IMG/VR virus record: IMGVR_UViG_3300048437_000069
Location: 1 to 22,884 of that record
DNA length: 22,884 bases
Direction: 5' to 3' (one strand)
Source of the DNA: a virus
Positions 13,084-20,740 of the stretch are shown here, one piece after another (within the stretch, counting starts at the first letter, position 1; every line of letters starts with the position of its first letter). The position numbers were made by a program, and so were the translations under genes. The notes beneath the pieces are model-generated. The model was given only the letters and a program-made list of their open reading frames with translations. It made no database searches and had not been told where the DNA came from.

Positions 13084-13715
13084 TATTCTTCTCCTTTGAC
13101 TACGACAATCTTGGTAGGACGCTGAACGACAGTCTGCTTTGCGCCATCGCGTACACCGTGGTTCTTGACCTTAGCCATGAACAAGACAGTGTCGCCTTTC
13201 TCAGCAGGCATGTAGCCGTTGTCGTCAATCTTCTCACCAAGGGTGTTCATGTAGACAACCTTGTTGCCTGCCGCATCTTCCATGATGGTGATGTGGCCGA
13301 CACCGCTGTCGTAGTAGTGGAACTTAGGGCGGTCATACTCGATGACAGCAACCACAGTCAACTCAAACTGCATGCGCTCACCAACGACACCAACGTGTTC
13401 CAACGTAGCGTTCTTGGCATTCTTGTCTGCCTCACGCTTTGCGTCCCACTCAGCCTGACGAGCCGCTTGCTTGTCAATGATCTTGCACACAGCGTTGTAC
13501 TGACCTTCAGTCAACTTGCCATACAAGTCATACGCTTTGGCAAGGCTCAACGCGAAATCATTCTTTGACCAGAACTTGTCAAACTCGATGTTGATCAACC
13601 AACCCTCGACTTCACCTGAACGCTCAAAGGTACGGTGAAACGTCTTGTTAGCGTTCTGCCAAATGTTGCGGTTGACTGCGTTGTTGTAAGCCACTTCATC
13701 TTGGATAAAAGCCAT
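13083..13715 (-). CDS. Replication-region protein with C-terminal OB-fold-like domain
   Basis: The 210-residue protein has an N-terminal half of unknown type, with 'LTEGQYNAVCKIIDKQAARQ' near its end, and a charged linker. Its C-terminal beta domain (about 108-207) reads 'GERMQFELTVVAVIEYDRP', 'HITIMEDAAGNKVVYMNTLG', 'EKGDTVLFMAKVKNHGVRDG' and 'AKQTVVQRPTKIVVV'. The V-K-x-H-x-x-x-x-G-x-K-Q-T-V-x-x-R pattern recurs in many phage and bacterial proteins with an OB-like fold, often of unknown role and suspected to bind single-stranded nucleic acid. It is the first gene of the unit driven by the promoter at 13753-13793 and has AGGAG before its ATG. ssDNA binding is inference. Confidence 0.85.
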   Translation of the reverse strand: MAFIQDEVAYNNAVNRNIWQNANKTFHRTFERSGEVEGWLINIEFDKFWSKNDFALSLAKAYDLYGKLTEGQYNAVCKIIDKQAARQAEWDAKREADKNAKNATLEHVGVVGERMQFELTVVAVIEYDRPKFHYYDSGVGHITIMEDAAGNKVVYMNTLGEKIDDNGYMPAEKGDTVLFMAKVKNHGVRDGAKQTVVQRPTKIVVVKGEE

Positions 13716-13748
13716 GTCGTTCTCCTAATTACATTTCAATTTCGACAT
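13714..13748 (-). repeat. Leader inverted repeat ATGTCG...CGACAT, copy 1
   Basis: On the minus strand ATGTCG (13748-13743), at the predicted transcription start, is repeated inverted as CGACAT (13719-13714), which ends in the first two bases of the ATG. The 23 bases between contain AATTGAAAT and AGGAGA. Equivalent repeats lie at 16742-16781 and 17359-17398. Confidence 0.75.
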
Positions 13749-13752
13749 GCAT

Positions 13753-13793
13753 AGAATAGCAAACTGATCAGGGATTGCAACACTTTTTGTTTC
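13753..13793 (-). promoter_or_regulatory. Repeated-family promoter, copy 1
   Basis: On the minus strand: upstream box GAAACAAAAAGTG (13793-13781), -35 TTGCAA (13780-13775), a 16-base spacer ending in TGC (extended -10), and -10 TATTCT (13758-13753). It begins exactly at the stop codon of the primase zinc-finger gene and drives the OB-fold gene and the small genes after it. Confidence 0.8.
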
Positions 13794-14188: not shown

Positions 14189-15653
14189 CTTTCATCCTCT
14201 GATACGCCAATTTAATGTTTTGGCTTGTTATAAATCGATTGACCTCATCGCTCATCCCGGACACATATGCCGGGTCAATGCCGTTAGGCCATACGCCGAA
14301 TTTTGCGCGGTACTTGTGAGCCGCCCAACCGTTGCTGTAGCCACGAGTCTTCGCGTAATACTGAAGCTCTCCTAGCCACTCTGACTTGCGCTCAGGGCTG
14401 TAGGTCTTATTTGCCTCCTTGGATAGGCGCTCAAGCTCTGAGCCGTCAGTCTTGATCTGTTCTTCAATCGGTATCTCGTAACCACATGAACAGCGAATGC
14501 CCATCATCTGGCGGTAGCACTGTGGGCAACCCGATACCTTGGCGTCCTTTTTCTTCTTGGTCTGCTTTTTCTCGCTGAACTTCTTCTCTCCATCATCGAG
14601 TTCTGCCGGGCAGATCGTCTCGCTGAATCCAAAATACTTCACGTTGTTGGCGTGATCGAGGTACACGGCATTCTCCTTGCCGGGAGCCGTCCGCATAATC
14701 CTGCCTGCACGTTGGACGTAGGCAATGTGCGAGCGGGTAGGGAAGCAGTCGATCAGGCACGAGACCGATGGGGCATCGTAGCCAGTGTTGAGCAACCGGG
14801 AGCATGACAGGATCATGAACTCACCATCATCATGCGCCTCGTAGAGTTCCTGCCGGATGTCGTCAGGCATGTAGCCATCGATGTGTTCTGCGCTGATGCC
14901 TTGCTCCCGGAACGATGCCACAAGAAACTTGCTGTGCTTGATCGATGGGCTGAAAGCGATTGTCTGTCGGCCTGCGCCATGCTTGAGCCAATTCTGGACG
15001 ATGTCACCCACTAGCTCGTCATCTTTCTCGACAGCCTCAGCCAAAGCGTTTGGATCGTAGTCTGTGCCGCCAGTCGGCAGTGACTTGGTCTTGATGCCCT
15101 TCAGGGCAACCGAGCGTCCGCCGTAGTAGTCAATAGGGCAGAGGTAGCCGTCAGCCAACAGGTCTTCCGCTGTCGCCGGGACGATCAGGTCATCGTAATA
15201 CTTGCCGAGTCCCTTGCTGAATGGTGTCGCTGACAGGCCGATGAATGGCACGTTGTCATACGCATCCATCATCTTCTTCTGGTACTCATACAAGGTGTGA
15301 GCCTCGTCCACGATGGCAAAGTCAAACTCAACCATGTGGTGTCTACGAGCCAGTGTCTGGATCGATGCGATTTGGATCGGCGCGTCTGGATTGGTTAGCT
15401 CGTGATTACCCTGCATGACACCGAATGGTAACCCGTGATGGTCAAACGCTTCCAGTGACTGCTGAACCAGTTTGATCCGGTCACAGATGAAAATGCCGCG
15501 CTTGCCCTTCTCCAGAGCATTCTTGAGCATTGCCGCCGCTGTGATGGTCTTGCCGAATGAGCATGGAGCCGCAAGCATCGGACGCTTGTTTCCTGCCGCT
15601 AGGCTGTCGCGTAGCATCTGGATCGCTAATTCTTGGTGTGGTCTCAATTTCAT
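14145..15653 (-). CDS. SF2 DEAD/DEAH-box helicase (RadD-like) with C-terminal zinc ribbon
   Basis: The 502-residue helicase has a Q-motif-like start (KLRPHQELA). Walker A is APCSFGKT (29-36), motif II is DEAH (116-119), motif III is SAT (141-143) and motif VI is QRAGRIMR (314-321). A Lys-rich linker (359-372) leads to a zinc ribbon, 'GCPQCYRQMMGIRCSC' (C376, C379, C388, C390). The C-terminal 'GWAAHKYRAKFGVWPNG' module is one I recall in phage and RadD/YejH-type helicases. It likely unwinds DNA during replication or recombination. The start has AGGAAATTGAG upstream. A structured gene-free stretch precedes it, and the primase zinc-finger gene overlaps its end. Confidence 0.93.
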   Translation of the reverse strand: MKLRPHQELAIQMLRDSLAAGNKRPMLAAPCSFGKTITAAAMLKNALEKGKRGIFICDRIKLVQQSLEAFDHHGLPFGVMQGNHELTNPDAPIQIASIQTLARRHHMVEFDFAIVDEAHTLYEYQKKMMDAYDNVPFIGLSATPFSKGLGKYYDDLIVPATAEDLLADGYLCPIDYYGGRSVALKGIKTKSLPTGGTDYDPNALAEAVEKDDELVGDIVQNWLKHGAGRQTIAFSPSIKHSKFLVASFREQGISAEHIDGYMPDDIRQELYEAHDDGEFMILSCSRLLNTGYDAPSVSCLIDCFPTRSHIAYVQRAGRIMRTAPGKENAVYLDHANNVKYFGFSETICPAELDDGEKKFSEKKQTKKKKDAKVSGCPQCYRQMMGIRCSCGYEIPIEEQIKTDGSELERLSKEANKTYSPERKSEWLGELQYYAKTRGYSNGWAAHKYRAKFGVWPNGIDPAYVSGMSDEVNRFITSQNIKLAYQRMKDDGSNNSKSTRQSA

Positions 15654-15666
15654 CTCAATTTCCTAA

Positions 15667-16064
15667 CCTGTTGAAATCCCAGGGTTTCTTCAGGCAATAG
15701 TTGTCATCTAGAGGACGAGGGGTGATCCCTGTCCATCCTGTGGTATCTCAATGCTAGTCCATGCAGTCTCGGTCATCAGCAGTGCTTTCAGTCGGGGGTG
15801 TCTCGACTCGGTAGCTCAACCGTCCCTGCCCGTAGGCGGATCACCTCTAACGCTGTTTGTCCCGTCCTCAAAGGTCGGACTGCAATCGTGCTTTCTGGTG
15901 CTGTACGACACTGAGCGTACTTCAACGGACGGTAACGGACTGGACTGAGTGAGAAGGGGTCTGTTAGACTTTGACCATGTGCCGGAATGCGACACGGGCC
16001 TTTCTCGTATTTCAATCCGGTAAGCTAGGGAGTTGGTCGCTCCCGTCCGGCACTGTTTTAAACT
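15667..16064. other. Gene-free structured region (candidate ncRNA or replication origin)
   Basis: About 400 bases hold no convincing gene. Several inverted repeats are present. GGTGATCC (15721-15728) pairs with GGATCACC (15838-15845), extendable outward by three pairs including one G-U. AGTCG/CGACT lies between them at about 15790-15807. GTGCCGG (15979-15985) pairs with CCGGCAC (16047-16053), enclosing GGGAG/CTCCC (16028-16032/16040-16044). AACGGAC is repeated at 15924-15930 and 15934-15940. The last element is 75 bases with a 7-pair closing stem and a T-arm-like hairpin, but lacks a usable anticodon arm and TTCGA loop, so it is not a normal tRNA. It separates the winged-HTH gene from the helicase. 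Confidence 0.5.
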
Positions 16065-16286
16065 CTACTCTCCTAAACTCTCGTTTGTCAAACCGCGATA
16101 CCGATATTCGGCTCTATTTTTATTTTCTCCGCATGGCACGAGGACGGTGAAGATCACATGTCCTCGATCACGCATCTCTTGAATGCGGGCCGCTAGACGG
16201 TAGCAACCGTAGCGGTGCAAGGCTTTCATCGGATCGATTGATCCATGCTGTTTCAGGTGCGACAAAATGTCGGTGTACTGGCTCAT
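16065..16286 (-). CDS. Winged helix-turn-helix protein
   Basis: The 73-residue product, 'SQYTDILSHLKQHGSIDPMK' then 'ALHRYGCYRLAARIQEMRDR' then GHVI, matches the small HTH_39-type phage family. In it, the pattern I-L-x-x-L-x-x-x-G-S-I-x-x-x-x-A-L-x-x-Y-G-x-x-R-L-A-A-R-I-x-E-x-R-x-x-G forms a DNA-binding winged helix. The ATG overlaps the upstream stop by one base (TAATG). It sits directly beside the structured gene-free region and upstream of the helicase. A role in replication initiation or transcription control is possible, but the target is unknown. Confidence 0.85.
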   Translation of the reverse strand: MSQYTDILSHLKQHGSIDPMKALHRYGCYRLAARIQEMRDRGHVIFTVLVPCGENKNRAEYRYRGLTNESLGE

Positions 16287-16521: not shown

Positions 16522-16743
16522 TTACGCCGCCGCCTTAAGGTTGCAAAGATGTGGGCCGAAAAATGTGCCGTCCTCAAACTTAACTGAGTAGCCCCACTTT
16601 CCATCGATTGAATACTGGACGCGGTCACAGATTTTTACTGGACGCTCTTGATACTCAGAACCGTTCTCAGTCTGGAACTCAGCGCAATACAGGGCTGTGT
16701 CACCTACGTTGAACTCTGGCTTGATTTCGCTGTACTTGATCAT
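16522..16743 (-). CDS. Small beta-rich protein, unknown function
   Basis: The 73-residue product contains 'FNVGDTALYCAEFQT', 'RPVKICDRVQYSIDGKWGYS' and 'VKFEDGTFFGPHLCNL', an SH3-like or small beta-barrel pattern. AAGGAG lies ten bases before the ATG. It is the first gene of the unit driven by promoter copy 2 and has the conserved leader. The end of the gene forms a GC hairpin with the stop codon in the loop (16518-16529). Early phage proteins of this size often modify host functions, but no target can be inferred. Confidence 0.8.
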   Translation of the reverse strand: MIKYSEIKPEFNVGDTALYCAEFQTENGSEYQERPVKICDRVQYSIDGKWGYSVKFEDGTFFGPHLCNLKAAA

Positions 16744-16781
16744 GTCGTGTTCTCCTTAATTTCAATTTAATTACCCGACAC
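16742..16781 (-). repeat. Leader inverted repeat, copy 2
   Basis: On the minus strand GTGTCG (16781-16776) at the predicted transcription start is matched by CGACAT (16747-16742) at the start codon, with five of six pairs Watson-Crick plus one G-T. The leader between carries AATTGAAAT and AAGGAGA, as in the other two copies. Confidence 0.7.
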
Positions 16782-16785
16782 AGAG

Positions 16786-16826
16786 ATAATAGCACAATGA
16801 GGATTGGGTGCAACACTTTTTGTTTC
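16786..16826 (-). promoter_or_regulatory. Repeated-family promoter, copy 2
   Basis: On the minus strand: GAAACAAAAAGTG (16826-16814), -35 TTGCAC (16813-16808), a 16-base spacer ending TGC, and -10 TATTAT (16791-16786). It lies directly after the terminator at 16831-16854 and drives the genes from 16743 down, probably through the HTH, helicase and primase genes. Confidence 0.82.
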
Positions 16827-16830
16827 ATTC

Positions 16831-16854
16831 AAAAAGAAAGGGGCGCTTGGCCCC
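16831..16854 (-). terminator. Rho-independent terminator
   Basis: On the minus strand GGGGC, CAAGC loop, GCCCC, then TTTCTTTTT. It abuts the stop of the 64-residue gene at 16855 and separates it from promoter copy 2. Confidence 0.85.
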
Positions 16855-17049
16855 TCATCTTCTCGTCCCGATCTCTAGCGTCTCGCATCGGCCTGAGTCG
16901 CGGTAGGCTCTCGCCATGTCCGCCGCATCTGCCTTGCGGTGATACCACTCGCTCTCGCCCACTGGCATGTCATCATTGTCGTACCAACTCACACCCCACG
17001 ACTTGAACTCATCGCAGTACCAAACTCGGATTGTCTTGCACTTGTCCAT
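16855..17049 (-). CDS. Small protein, unknown function
   Basis: The 64-residue product, 'KTIRVWYCDEFKSWGVSWYD' then 'WYHRKADAADMARAYRDSGR', looks like a small alpha/beta protein with aromatic strands followed by a helix. GGGAGG lies before its ATG. A GC hairpin (17063-17080) separates it from the 96-residue gene, and a strong terminator follows directly. It is the last gene of the unit driven by promoter copy 3. No family is recognised. Confidence 0.78.
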   Translation of the reverse strand: MDKCKTIRVWYCDEFKSWGVSWYDNDDMPVGESEWYHRKADAADMARAYRDSGRCETLEIGTRR

Positions 17050-17080: not shown

Positions 17081-17360
17081 CCTTGTATTTTTTAACATAC
17101 CGTTTCAAGGCTCGGTACTGCTTATTGAGATCCTTGATGATGTCATCTGGGTCACCCGTCCAACCCATGCGGATGTCATGGTTGTTGTGGCCCTTTTCAT
17201 CGAACGTCGATAGGATGTACTTTGCCTCGCCGTAGATTTGCTCCTCGGTGAGTGCCTCAATATTTTCGAGGCGATCATCCTCAACCCACATCTCCAACGA
17301 CAATTGGAACTCGTAAATTTTGTCAGCGTCAGCGATCATTTTTGCTTTGAGTGTAGTCAT
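17070..17360 (-). CDS. Acidic helical early protein, unknown function
   Basis: The 96-residue product starts at ATG 17360, just after AAGGAGATCGAC; a longer TTG frame from 17381 would include the ribosome site and is rejected. It is helical and acidic: 'KMIADADKIYEFQLSLEMWV', 'NIEALTEEQIYGEAKYILST', and a Lys-rich end 'KQYRALKRYVKKYKEAA'. It is the first gene after promoter copy 3 and has the conserved leader. No family is recognised. Confidence 0.82.
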   Translation of the reverse strand: MTTLKAKMIADADKIYEFQLSLEMWVEDDRLENIEALTEEQIYGEAKYILSTFDEKGHNNHDIRMGWTGDPDDIIKDLNKQYRALKRYVKKYKEAA

Positions 17361-17398
17361 GTCGATCTCCTTTGATTTCAATTAAATTTATTCGACAT
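17359..17398 (-). repeat. Leader inverted repeat, copy 3
   Basis: On the minus strand ATGTCGA (17398-17392) and TCGACAT (17365-17359) are a perfect 7-base inverted repeat. The first arm lies at the predicted transcription start and the second runs into the start codon, with AATTGAAAT and AAGGAGA between. Confidence 0.78.
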
Positions 17399-17402
17399 GT
17401 GT

Positions 17403-17444
17403 ATATTCGCACTTTACGATCTTGATTGCAACACTTTTCGTTTC
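17403..17444 (-). promoter_or_regulatory. Repeated-family promoter, copy 3
   Basis: On the minus strand: GAAACGAAAAGTG (17444-17432), -35 TTGCAA (17431-17426), a 17-base spacer ending TGC, and -10 GAATAT (17408-17403). The upstream box and -35 lie inside the last codons of ninG, whose stop is at 17414-17416. Confidence 0.78.
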
Positions 17445-18428: not shown

Positions 18429-18706
18429 CAGAACTTCCACCAAGGCTTGGCAGGCTCTGAGACACCAGTGGTGCGAACCGGGGCTGTAAACGCCTCTTCC
18501 CTCACCTTTGGCTTCCTGCCACCGCCACGCTTGTATCGGTAGTCCACGTTGATAAAATCTCTGTACTTGCTCAACGCGCCCCGGATTGATGCCTCTGATC
18601 GGCCAAGTTTTGACGCCATCACAGAGTATTTTGCCCCATCCCGGTAAAGGTCACCGAGTGTTAGTAACTCGATATTTGACCAACGCTTTTTTGTTTTACT
18701 AGTCAT
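18425..18706 (-). CDS. Small Myb/SANT-like DNA-binding protein
   Basis: The 93-residue product has an N-terminal tri-helical motif, 'KRWSNIELLTLGDLYRDGAK' then 'YSVMASKLGRSEASIRGALS', typical of SANT/Myb or GcrA-like helix-turn-helix domains. A Gly/Lys/Arg-rich linker (KRGGGRKPKVR) follows, and the end is aromatic (KPWWKFW). It overlaps the Cro-like gene by eight bases and NinB by four. A regulatory role is probable; the target is not visible. Confidence 0.82.
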   Translation of the reverse strand: MTSKTKKRWSNIELLTLGDLYRDGAKYSVMASKLGRSEASIRGALSKYRDFINVDYRYKRGGGRKPKVREEAFTAPVRTTGVSEPAKPWWKFW

Positions 18707-18917
18707 CGGATTGTTCCCCTAATTTTAAAAATTCAAAAAAATTCATTTCAAAGTATTCAGCGAATGACACCAATTTGCCGAGGTGCATGTCGCTCTGGCT
18801 TCGCCATCTCGTGACCTGCTGACGGTGTAGACCGTAGTCTTCTGCCATCTGCTGACACGATATTCCTCTCAGCGATTGGGCGCGTTTGATACATTGCCCT
18901 GCGTTAATTTGTGTCAC
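18699..18917 (-). CDS. Cro/XRE-type HTH regulator, GTG start
   Basis: The 72-residue protein carries an XRE-type helix-turn-helix: 'GISCQQMAEDYGLHRQQVTR' then 'WRSQSDMHLGKLVSFAEYFE', followed by an acidic tail. It starts at GTG 18917 with AAGGAG six bases upstream; an ATG between the two is followed at once by TGA. Its length and position before the nin genes recall Cro/CII-class regulators (inference). The leader on the opposite strand contains two hairpins and a terminator, so expression may be subject to antisense RNA. No repressor partner gene is seen. Confidence 0.85.
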   Translation of the reverse strand: MTQINAGQCIKRAQSLRGISCQQMAEDYGLHRQQVTRWRSQSDMHLGKLVSFAEYFEMNFFEFLKLGEQSDD

Positions 18918-18929
18918 TCCATGCTCCTT

Positions 18930-18998
18930 TTGTTAAACTAAAGAGGCATCGGACGAGATGCCCCTCATTGACCCGTGTAAGCCACGGGTCTTTTTTTT
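18930..18998 (+). ncRNA. Candidate antisense small RNA opposite the Cro-like leader
   Basis: The plus strand has hairpin GGCATC-GGACGA-GATGCC (18945-18962), then a strong terminator hairpin ending in T8 (18970-18998), with no plus-strand gene within 9 kb upstream. A TAAACT -10-like sequence lies at about 18934-18939 with a poor -35, so the 5' end given is a guess. The arrangement resembles lambda OOP RNA, which is antisense to cII. The RNA itself is inference; the terminator is visible. Confidence 0.4.
18970..18998 (+). terminator. Rho-independent terminator on the plus strand
   Basis: GACCCGTG (18970-18977), TAAGC loop, CACGGGTC (18983-18990), then eight T residues. The perfect 8-pair stem and T-run point rightward, against the direction of all nearby genes. 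Confidence 0.85.
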
Positions 18999-19873: not shown

Positions 19874-20052
19874 TTGTCTCGCCCTTTTGAAAGATTCTGT
19901 CCCAGTTGCTCTCGTACCGATCCTTGTTTGGGATTGGTCGAGGCTTGCTTCCTTTTCCCATTACCTACTCCATTGAGCCAACATGCGGCGCACTGGATGC
20001 CAAAGCTGTCGATGACGACAGCCTTTTCTCCGCACCATTTACAGATCGACAT
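19870..20052 (-). CDS. Small zinc-ribbon protein between annealing protein and exonuclease
   Basis: The 60-residue product carries 'CKWCGEKAVVIDSFGIQCAA' then CW, a C-x2-C...C-x2-C zinc ribbon, followed by a basic, polar, disordered-looking tail. AGGAG lies seven bases before the ATG. It overlaps the annealing protein stop by 14 bases and the exonuclease start by four. Its position within the recombination pair suggests DNA binding or bridging between the two (inference). No family is recognised. Confidence 0.82.
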   Translation of the reverse strand: MSICKWCGEKAVVIDSFGIQCAACWLNGVGNGKRKQASTNPKQGSVREQLGQNLSKGRDK

Positions 20053-20671
20053 CGGTCAACTCCTGATCCGCCTGAGCGGTCTGGGCTTCCATGTCAGCGA
20101 TCCGCTTTGCTAGCGCGTTGTACGCTTGCTCGTGGTGCGACTGTGGTAGCTCAGAGACAGAGTTGATCTTGTAGTGAAGCAAGAACTTGCCCGCGTCAGC
20201 GCCTGAGTAATCAAGCATCTCATTGAGGCGTTGGGCCTGCGCCTGATCGATCGGCTGTGTGAGAGCCTCTGCTTCGGCTTGAGGGATGTCACTGCCGCTG
20301 AAAATGTAGAAGCCTAATCCGAACATGGCTAGGCACTTGACCAGTGTTCTCATGCGGGTGTCTGAGATATCACGCGCATTCGGGTTCATGATCGCCTTGT
20401 TCTTGTGATCCATGACAGGCAACCACATTGTACGGGTAGCCACCTCTTCACCCTCATGAATGGTTAAGACGCACTCAACCATGACAGAGCCGTCCTCAAG
20501 GCGGTTATCTTGGAAGACGTAGTAAGACTCAGGGTAACGCTCCATCAGTGTGGCCCAAGCCCAAGTCCATGATAGGTATGACAGATTGCCTTTCTTCTGA
20601 ACGTGTTCGTTCACATTGATTGGCGAAAGATCAGCCCAGACACGGGCCATAAGGGTTGTTTGCTTTTTCAT
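20039..20671 (-). CDS. DUF1071/Sak3-type single-strand annealing protein
   Basis: The 210-residue protein has the family signature 'NVNEHVQKKGNLSYLSWTWA' then 'WATLMERYPESYYVFQD' near the N-terminus, and 'RDISDTRMRTLVKCLAMFGL' then 'GFYIFSGSDIPQ' in the middle, as in Rad52-like SSAPs of the DUF1071/Sak3 group. It would anneal complementary single strands made by the exonuclease. The C-terminal third is acidic and Ala/Gln-rich, a likely partner-binding or flexible tail. It is the first gene after promoter copy 4. Its leader, AATAGGAGCGAGCA, is shared with the lone plus-strand gene, and AGGAGC can pair with an upstream GCTCCT. Confidence 0.9.
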   Translation of the reverse strand: MKKQTTLMARVWADLSPINVNEHVQKKGNLSYLSWTWAWATLMERYPESYYVFQDNRLEDGSVMVECVLTIHEGEEVATRTMWLPVMDHKNKAIMNPNARDISDTRMRTLVKCLAMFGLGFYIFSGSDIPQAEAEALTQPIDQAQAQRLNEMLDYSGADAGKFLLHYKINSVSELPQSHHEQAYNALAKRIADMEAQTAQADQELTDVDL

Positions 20672-20676
20672 TGCTC

Positions 20677-20699
20677 GCTCCTATTTAAACAACAGGAGC
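20677..20699 (-). repeat. Inverted repeat over the annealing-protein ribosome site
   Basis: GCTCCT and AGGAGC (minus strand 20699-20694 and 20682-20677) are perfect 6-base arms. The second arm is the Shine-Dalgarno sequence of the gene at 20671. The first arm overlaps the bases just after the -10, so it may lie before the transcription start and act as an operator rather than as RNA. Confidence 0.6.
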
Positions 20700-20740
20700 A
20701 TTACAACAGATTATGTTGCCGCCCGCAACAACTTTCGTTT
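20700..20740 (-). promoter_or_regulatory. Repeated-family promoter, copy 4 (divergent member)
   Basis: On the minus strand: AAACGAAAGTTG (20740-20729), -35 TTGCGG (20728-20723), a 17-base spacer ending TGT, and -10 TGTAAT (20705-20700). A TGTTGC-GGGCG-GCAACA hairpin lies inside the promoter. It starts at the lysozyme stop codon and drives the recombination genes. Confidence 0.72.

Follow-up and report, generated by a model that had tools for sequence, protein, structure and literature searches.

Stabilisation of ompA-type mRNA by a 5'-terminal stem-loop was reportedly described by Emory, Bouvet and Belasco in 1992, and leaders of this type carry the hairpin upstream of a ribosome-binding site that is itself free. 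Both ompA and papA are listed among the bacterial mRNAs that 5'-terminal stem-loops stabilise (PMC3997798), and in vitro, RNase E cleavage of RNA is much slower when the 5' end is base-paired (PMC3997798). In the leaders of the T4 genes e, soc, 49 and I-TevI, paired arms act mainly in RNAs initiated upstream and are absent, at least in part, from transcripts of the gene's own promoter (PMC3014915, PMC2988022). Iterated conserved sequences at the starts of many unrelated genes occur in cluster K mycobacteriophages, where SAS is a 13-bp Shine-Dalgarno-like motif, about half of the SAS have an upstream inverted repeat with a variable spacer, and the ESAS repeats measure 17 bp and lie upstream of SAS (PMC3203893). 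In archaeal viruses, one conserved regulatory cassette stands at many unrelated small early genes and is proposed to be bound, as DNA, by an Aca8-type repressor (PMC11065993).

Here we describe a promoter-leader cassette that recurs before dozens of unrelated genes in a group of uncultured phages. Rather than forming a new category, it is a variant of leaders already known, those with a 5'-terminal stem and those with a promoter in a hairpin. As in the ompA and papA leaders, its 5'-terminal nucleotide is predicted to be paired and its ribosome-binding sequence unpaired; it differs from them in a stem of only 4 bp, a 3' strand that touches the AUG and a Shine-Dalgarno (SD) sequence inside the loop. 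Unlike SAS/ESAS, the repeat has one arm at the transcription start and the other at the start codon, the unit includes a full promoter, and in contrast to the archaeal cassette, RNA pairing is favoured here. A sister cassette before a Sak-like gene resembles the T4 leaders in that its promoter overlaps the 5' strand of a hairpin and, like gene e, it is predicted to sequester SD and start in read-through RNA and to lack the 5' strand in native RNA. It departs from them in its host-type promoter, its predicted early gene and the lysis genes upstream. The main-class cassettes differ from the T4 type in retaining the 5' arm, with GUCG at +1 to +4 of the predicted native RNA.

The window, that is, the whole stretch of DNA analysed (22.9 kb; IMG/VR virus record IMGVR_UViG_3300048437_000069, positions 1-22,884), is probably a fragment of a virus genome. 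Its apparent genes are carried on the minus strand, and the region from ~13 to 21 kb holds genes for a Sak-like annealing protein, a RecE-like exonuclease, NinB, NinG and a helicase, along with many for small unknown proteins, with a lysozyme gene directly upstream of the Sak gene. Searching a phage collection with the window revealed no similar DNA among deposited phages, and the protein relatives in cultured phages are distant (helicase ~35%, Sak ~31-41%, terminase up to 62% identity). A scan of a genome collection returned a single match, in Flagellimonas, which is probably due to chance.

Three promoter copies with an inverted repeat, proposed earlier by a sequence-only reading of this DNA, are indeed present on the minus strand, one or two bases from where they had been placed (Table 1). 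Each consists, in order, of AAACRAAAAGTG, a -35 element TTGCA, a spacer of 16-17 nt, a -10 element, 5 nt, TGTCG, an A+T-rich linker, AGGAGA, CGAC and ATG, with CGAC abutting ATG in all three. The G of TGTCG is the seventh base after the -10 element in every copy, in agreement with the proposed start site. The arms themselves had to be redrawn: the constant part is TGTCG/CGACA (5 bp), and the preceding [AG] is not kept in relatives (G 23, A 14, T 6, C 2). The perfect 7-base pair ascribed to copy 3 is also found in copy 1 (CATGTCG/CGACATG), and the arms of copy 2 pair over 5 bp. Similarly, the shared linker sequence AATTGAAAT occurs in three of three copies, but AAGGAGA reads TAGGAGA in copy 1, and in relatives the linker is replaced altogether. 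The pattern TGTCG N18-36 CGACATG matched five times in the window (three on the minus strand, two mirror matches on the plus strand) versus 0.07 expected in shuffles, and none of 100 shuffles reached five; together with retention in ~50 distinct relatives, this rules out a chance origin of the repeat. A generic sigma-70 scan of the window did not flag the cassettes because their -35 element is TTGCA. A consensus scan of the window for terminators, suggestive only, found 11 versus 7.7 expected in shuffles.

Table 1 Coordinates of cassettes, leader elements and neighbouring genes in the window.
Feature	Position	Strand	Remarks
Cassette 3	17358-17443	-	upstream element AAACGAAAAGTG
Cassette 3 promoter	-35 17431-17426; -10 17408-17403	-	TTGCAA; GAATAT
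Cassette 3 5' arm	17397-17393	-	TGTCG; predicted +1 = 17396
Cassette 3 SD, 3' arm, start	17370-17367; 17364-17360; 17360-17358	-	GGAG; CGACA; ATG
ORF, 96 aa	17070-17360	-	behind cassette 3; without known family
Terminator-like hairpin	16838-16856	-	just upstream of cassette 2; consensus scan, suggestive only
Cassette 2	16741-16825	-
Cassette 2 promoter	-35 16813-16808; -10 16791-16786	-	TTGCAC; TATTAT
Cassette 2 5' arm	16780-16776	-	TGTCG; predicted +1 = 16779
Cassette 2 SD, 3' arm, start	16755-16752; 16747-16743; 16743-16741	-	SD; CGACA; ATG
ORF, 73 aa	16522-16743	-	behind cassette 2; without known family
Cassette 1	13713-13792	-
Cassette 1 promoter	-35 13780-13775; -10 13758-13753	-	TTGCAA; TATTCT
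Cassette 1 5' arm	13747-13743	-	TGTCG; predicted +1 = 13746
Cassette 1 SD, 3' arm, start	13725-13722; 13719-13715; 13715-13713	-	SD; CGACA; ATG
ORF, 210 aa	13083-13715	-	behind cassette 1; PHROG 27218 (unknown function)
Sister cassette	20669-20740	-	promoter-embedded hairpin
Sister cassette promoter	-35 20728-20723; -10 20705-20700	-	TTGCGG; TGTAAT
Sister cassette arms	20699-20694; 20682-20677	-	discriminator GCTCCT; SD arm AGGAGC
Sister cassette starts	20693; 20671-20669	-	predicted +1; start codon
Sak-like ssDNA annealing protein gene	20039-20671	-	behind sister cassette; PHROG 659, E 2e-37
Cro/C1-type HTH gene	18699-18917
Winged HTH gene	16065-16286

Relatives were gathered by scanning viral contigs with the upstream element alone, leaving the arms free, with cassette patterns, and through helicase and Sak relatives; for the helicase relatives, a first simple promoter search gave few sites and the upstream regions of the genes were inspected instead. 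Among the matches listed, related viral contigs contain ~50 distinct cassettes, and a looser scan yielded, among the matches listed, mostly phages that are unrelated and have ordinary TTGAC promoters; other 5' hairpins occur in many of them. In the scan with the upstream element only, cassettes of related phages have both arms and unrelated chance matches usually neither. Entropy is zero or near zero in the arms, and linkers differ from one another both in sequence and in length, the loops measuring 20 (seen once, in contig G030), 22-26 and 28-30 nt; given such divergent linkers, the arms are what is kept. The gap between the -10 element and the arm is 5 nt in the inspected copies, and the distance from the last -10 base to the arm is constant. 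The genes behind the cassettes fall into 33 unrelated protein clusters, so the conservation, which reaches as far as the ATG, does not stem from the gene, and the conserved unit ends there. Loss of the arms from a retained promoter without compensation, the pattern that would have spoken against the earlier proposal, was not observed among 47 sites that combine a promoter match with a start and an SD and had not been selected for arms: 40 have both arms, and the other seven comprise three of the Sak class, two in contig L168 and two that look like chance matches. These cassette counts are not independent, since the cassettes are copies of one another.

Folding of the predicted messages, which start with GUCG, gave a 5'-terminal stem of 4 bp with CGAC and the SD in the loop. 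The earlier suggestion of a stem covering the ribosome site therefore does not describe the main class, in which the native-RNA stem ends at the base next to the AUG. Stem probability was 0.97 when leaders were folded alone and averaged 0.72 in 49 cassettes carrying 30 nt of coding sequence; in most of these 49 folds the 5'-terminal nucleotide, as placed by -10 spacing only, is paired. Mean minimum free energy (MFE) was -4.1 for real leaders versus -0.87 with a random 5' tetramer, single-leader z-scores of the three window copies ranged from -0.6 to -1.2, and a 4-bp stem over a loop of 20-30 nt is marginal. Chimeras that join the 5' half of one linker to the 3' half of an unrelated one folded as well as real leaders; this test was negative for co-adaptation of the linker halves, which leaves the arms as the only co-adapted part. 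Compensatory changes, which the sequence-only reading had suggested seeking, were absent from the main-class relatives examined; because the arms never vary, this class gives no proof by covariation. A known Rfam leader or riboswitch family is ruled out for the window and seven relatives, where no match reached the gathering score.

Covariation was found in the sister cassette, which has the same type of -35 element as the main class and a different leader. Among 14 aligned Sak relatives, the discriminator arm (mostly CTCCT) pairs with the SD arm (mostly AGGAG), with variants such as CTCCC/GGGAG and CCCCT/AGGGG, among others, and a GUUG/CAAU pair further in. In this alignment 95.7% of cells are paired, four pairs show double changes, and the covariation score was reached by none of 500 shuffles. 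The leaders contain G-U pairs, one pair being G-T in 13 of 14, which fits with RNA. Because the 5' arm (-6 to -1, by -10 spacing) precedes the predicted +1, the hairpin would form only in read-through RNA, where folds and covariation indicate that it sequesters SD and start as in T4 gene e (MFE -7.7 to -22 kcal/mol in 16 leaders; -15.5, z -5.4, in the window). Native Sak RNA (5'-GUUG) in turn often pairs weakly, in predicted folds, with (G)CAAU(G) or CAAC near the start codon. Such pairing would give the architecture of the main class, altered by a compensatory change (C-to-U at +3 matched by G-to-A), a suggestive parallel between paralogous cassettes. Since the Sak class pairs its start-site and initiation regions with covariation, it supports RNA pairing in the main class.

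Several other leaders and structured elements were noted. Upstream of the helicase, 15930-16060 (minus strand) is non-coding and structured (MFE -40.5, z -2.8), has no Rfam match and is possibly a small RNA; a related stretch, GTGCCGGAATGCG...CACGGG...CCGGT..GCTAGGG, lies next to a AGTGTTGA element in L417 and L420. In the helicase leader itself (15651-15760, minus strand), a CCTCTAGATGACAACTATTGCC-like stretch recurs at L148:9704, L175:6602 and L169:6694. In distant helicase relatives, a -10-like sequence is followed by GCGTCGGTGGGG-N7-CCCC-TAAAGA-CCGACGG...CACCCGACGC (L154:4968, L171, L174:3694, L176, L177:7219, L180, L182, L186, L187); GCGTCGG could pair in either of two ways, and no Rfam match was found in L154, L174, L182 or L187. 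A second iterated cassette, present in other relatives, TAGTTAACAAAAGTGTT plus TATAAT plus AAGTTAAGTAAATAAC...CGGAGC..ATG, has another leader without TGTCG/CGAC arms (L157:6096, L161:4554 and 5493, L164, L165, L190, L192, L194). In the stretch 18905-18990, a GAGG hairpin leader precedes the Cro/C1-type HTH gene and a terminator-like hairpin lies on the plus strand (18970-18990); L142 and L144 have a hairpin leader similar to that of the HTH gene before small GTG-started genes. The unrelated phages L224, L225, L275, L301, L302 and L257 have AGTGTTGAC promoters with hairpins that begin no more than a few nt from the predicted start, and hairpins at the 5' end may be widespread among promoter-leader units of phages.

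The two main-class arms might instead be independent elements, a TGTCGR start-site motif (Y at -1, G at +1) and a CGAC context before the AUG, that are complementary by accident and inherited as a unit, which we consider unlikely but worth weighing. Invariant arms tied to separate landmarks would be expected of such elements, yet two fixed tetramers are complementary by chance in only ~1/256 cases per register. CGAC precedes the ATG at 59 of 826 distinct SD+ATG starts in related contigs, with TGTCG no more than 45 nt away in 51 of them; at starts without TGTCG it is near background (8 of ~775, about half of these, at least four, looking like internal coding ATGs), and CGAC as a general start-codon context is therefore ruled out. 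Likewise, in a wider set and among the matches listed, CGAC accompanies 40 of 45 promoters with TGTCG versus 2 of 111 without. The T at -1, outside the predicted transcript, is invariant in the main class, as a promoter would require; a lone CGTCG...CGACATG promoter in the unrelated GC-rich 91-kb virus contig L109 (near 4110, reverse complement, before a 59-aa ORF), possibly convergent or due to chance, has C at this position and keeps GUCG/CGAC. In L168, two cassettes keep TGTCG though the 3' arm is no longer CGAC, as independent elements might; in one, GUCGAA/UUCGAU pairing is the MFE fold, and in the other GUCGAA/UUUGAU pairing is possible with two G-U pairs, weak and absent from the MFE fold. 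Pairing of start-site and initiation regions also in the Sak class, with covariation, argues against accident.

The sequence-only reading had left a DNA operator and an mRNA stem side by side, and it is the RNA stem that is better supported, by arms locked to separate landmarks at free spacing and by the covarying Sak-class hairpin. An operator with two half-sites, through which a phage regulator such as the Cro/C1-type or winged HTH protein encoded nearby would co-repress the cassettes, is very unlikely. Iterated operators at early promoters under one repressor are known (archaeal virus Aca8, PMC11065993), and copies 1 and 3 do form a 7-bp palindrome, but the outer bases are not kept symmetric and the 3' half-site always lies exactly at the ATG. 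Half-sites for a single dimer would keep a fixed spacing; the arms are instead 20, 22-26 or 28-30 nt apart, a range that takes in the greater part of a helical turn, shows no preferred phasing and makes a rigid operator unlikely. The G-T pair in 13 of 14 Sak leaders is also acceptable to RNA and not favoured in a DNA palindrome. Least probable is that the main-class arms act mainly in RNAs initiated upstream, as in the T4 leaders: this fits the Sak cassette well, where only read-through RNA forms an SD-hiding hairpin of -8 to -22 kcal/mol, but main-class GUCG lies inside the predicted native transcript, read-through adds a single pair (U-A) without raising the predicted stem probability (mean 0.62 vs 0.72), and a terminator-like hairpin precedes cassette 2.

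RNA pairing of the message start with the bases before the AUG is thus our best explanation of the main class (probability roughly 0.55), with 5'-end protection as the proposed function, and the cassette probably acts through a short RNA stem at the 5' end of the message rather than a DNA switch. Transcription from a sigma-70-like promoter would begin at the G of TGTCG and give an mRNA with 5'-GUCG at its head; GUCG would pair in vivo with CGAC just before the AUG, and an A/U-rich loop of 20-30 nt would hold the SD. The most likely role of such a 5'-terminal stem of 4 bp would be to shield the triphosphate end against RppH/RNase E-type decay with the SD still exposed and to fix the start codon at the stem edge, rendering early mRNAs stable and initiation tunable. 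Its function may lie in 5'-end protection with an exposed SD or in gated initiation. A more far-reaching version, quite unlikely in our judgement, would be a phage-wide leader code, in which a 4-nt message tag complementary to the pre-start bases and a toehold-like device with the SD in its loop would let a phage or host factor that recognises it hold or release the translation of dozens of unrelated early genes together, the cassettes spreading as interchangeable units.

Should the stem form, many unrelated genes in a group of phages would be under the control of a single short leader rule, by which the message start pairs with the bases before the AUG and the SD lies in the loop. With the Sak leader, a recombination gene outside T4 joins those with a predicted promoter-in-hairpin guard, here with covarying arms. 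Conserved early promoters led to anti-defence genes in archaeal viruses (PMC11065993), and the cassette described here gives a similar sequence handle on early genes that are still uncharacterised.
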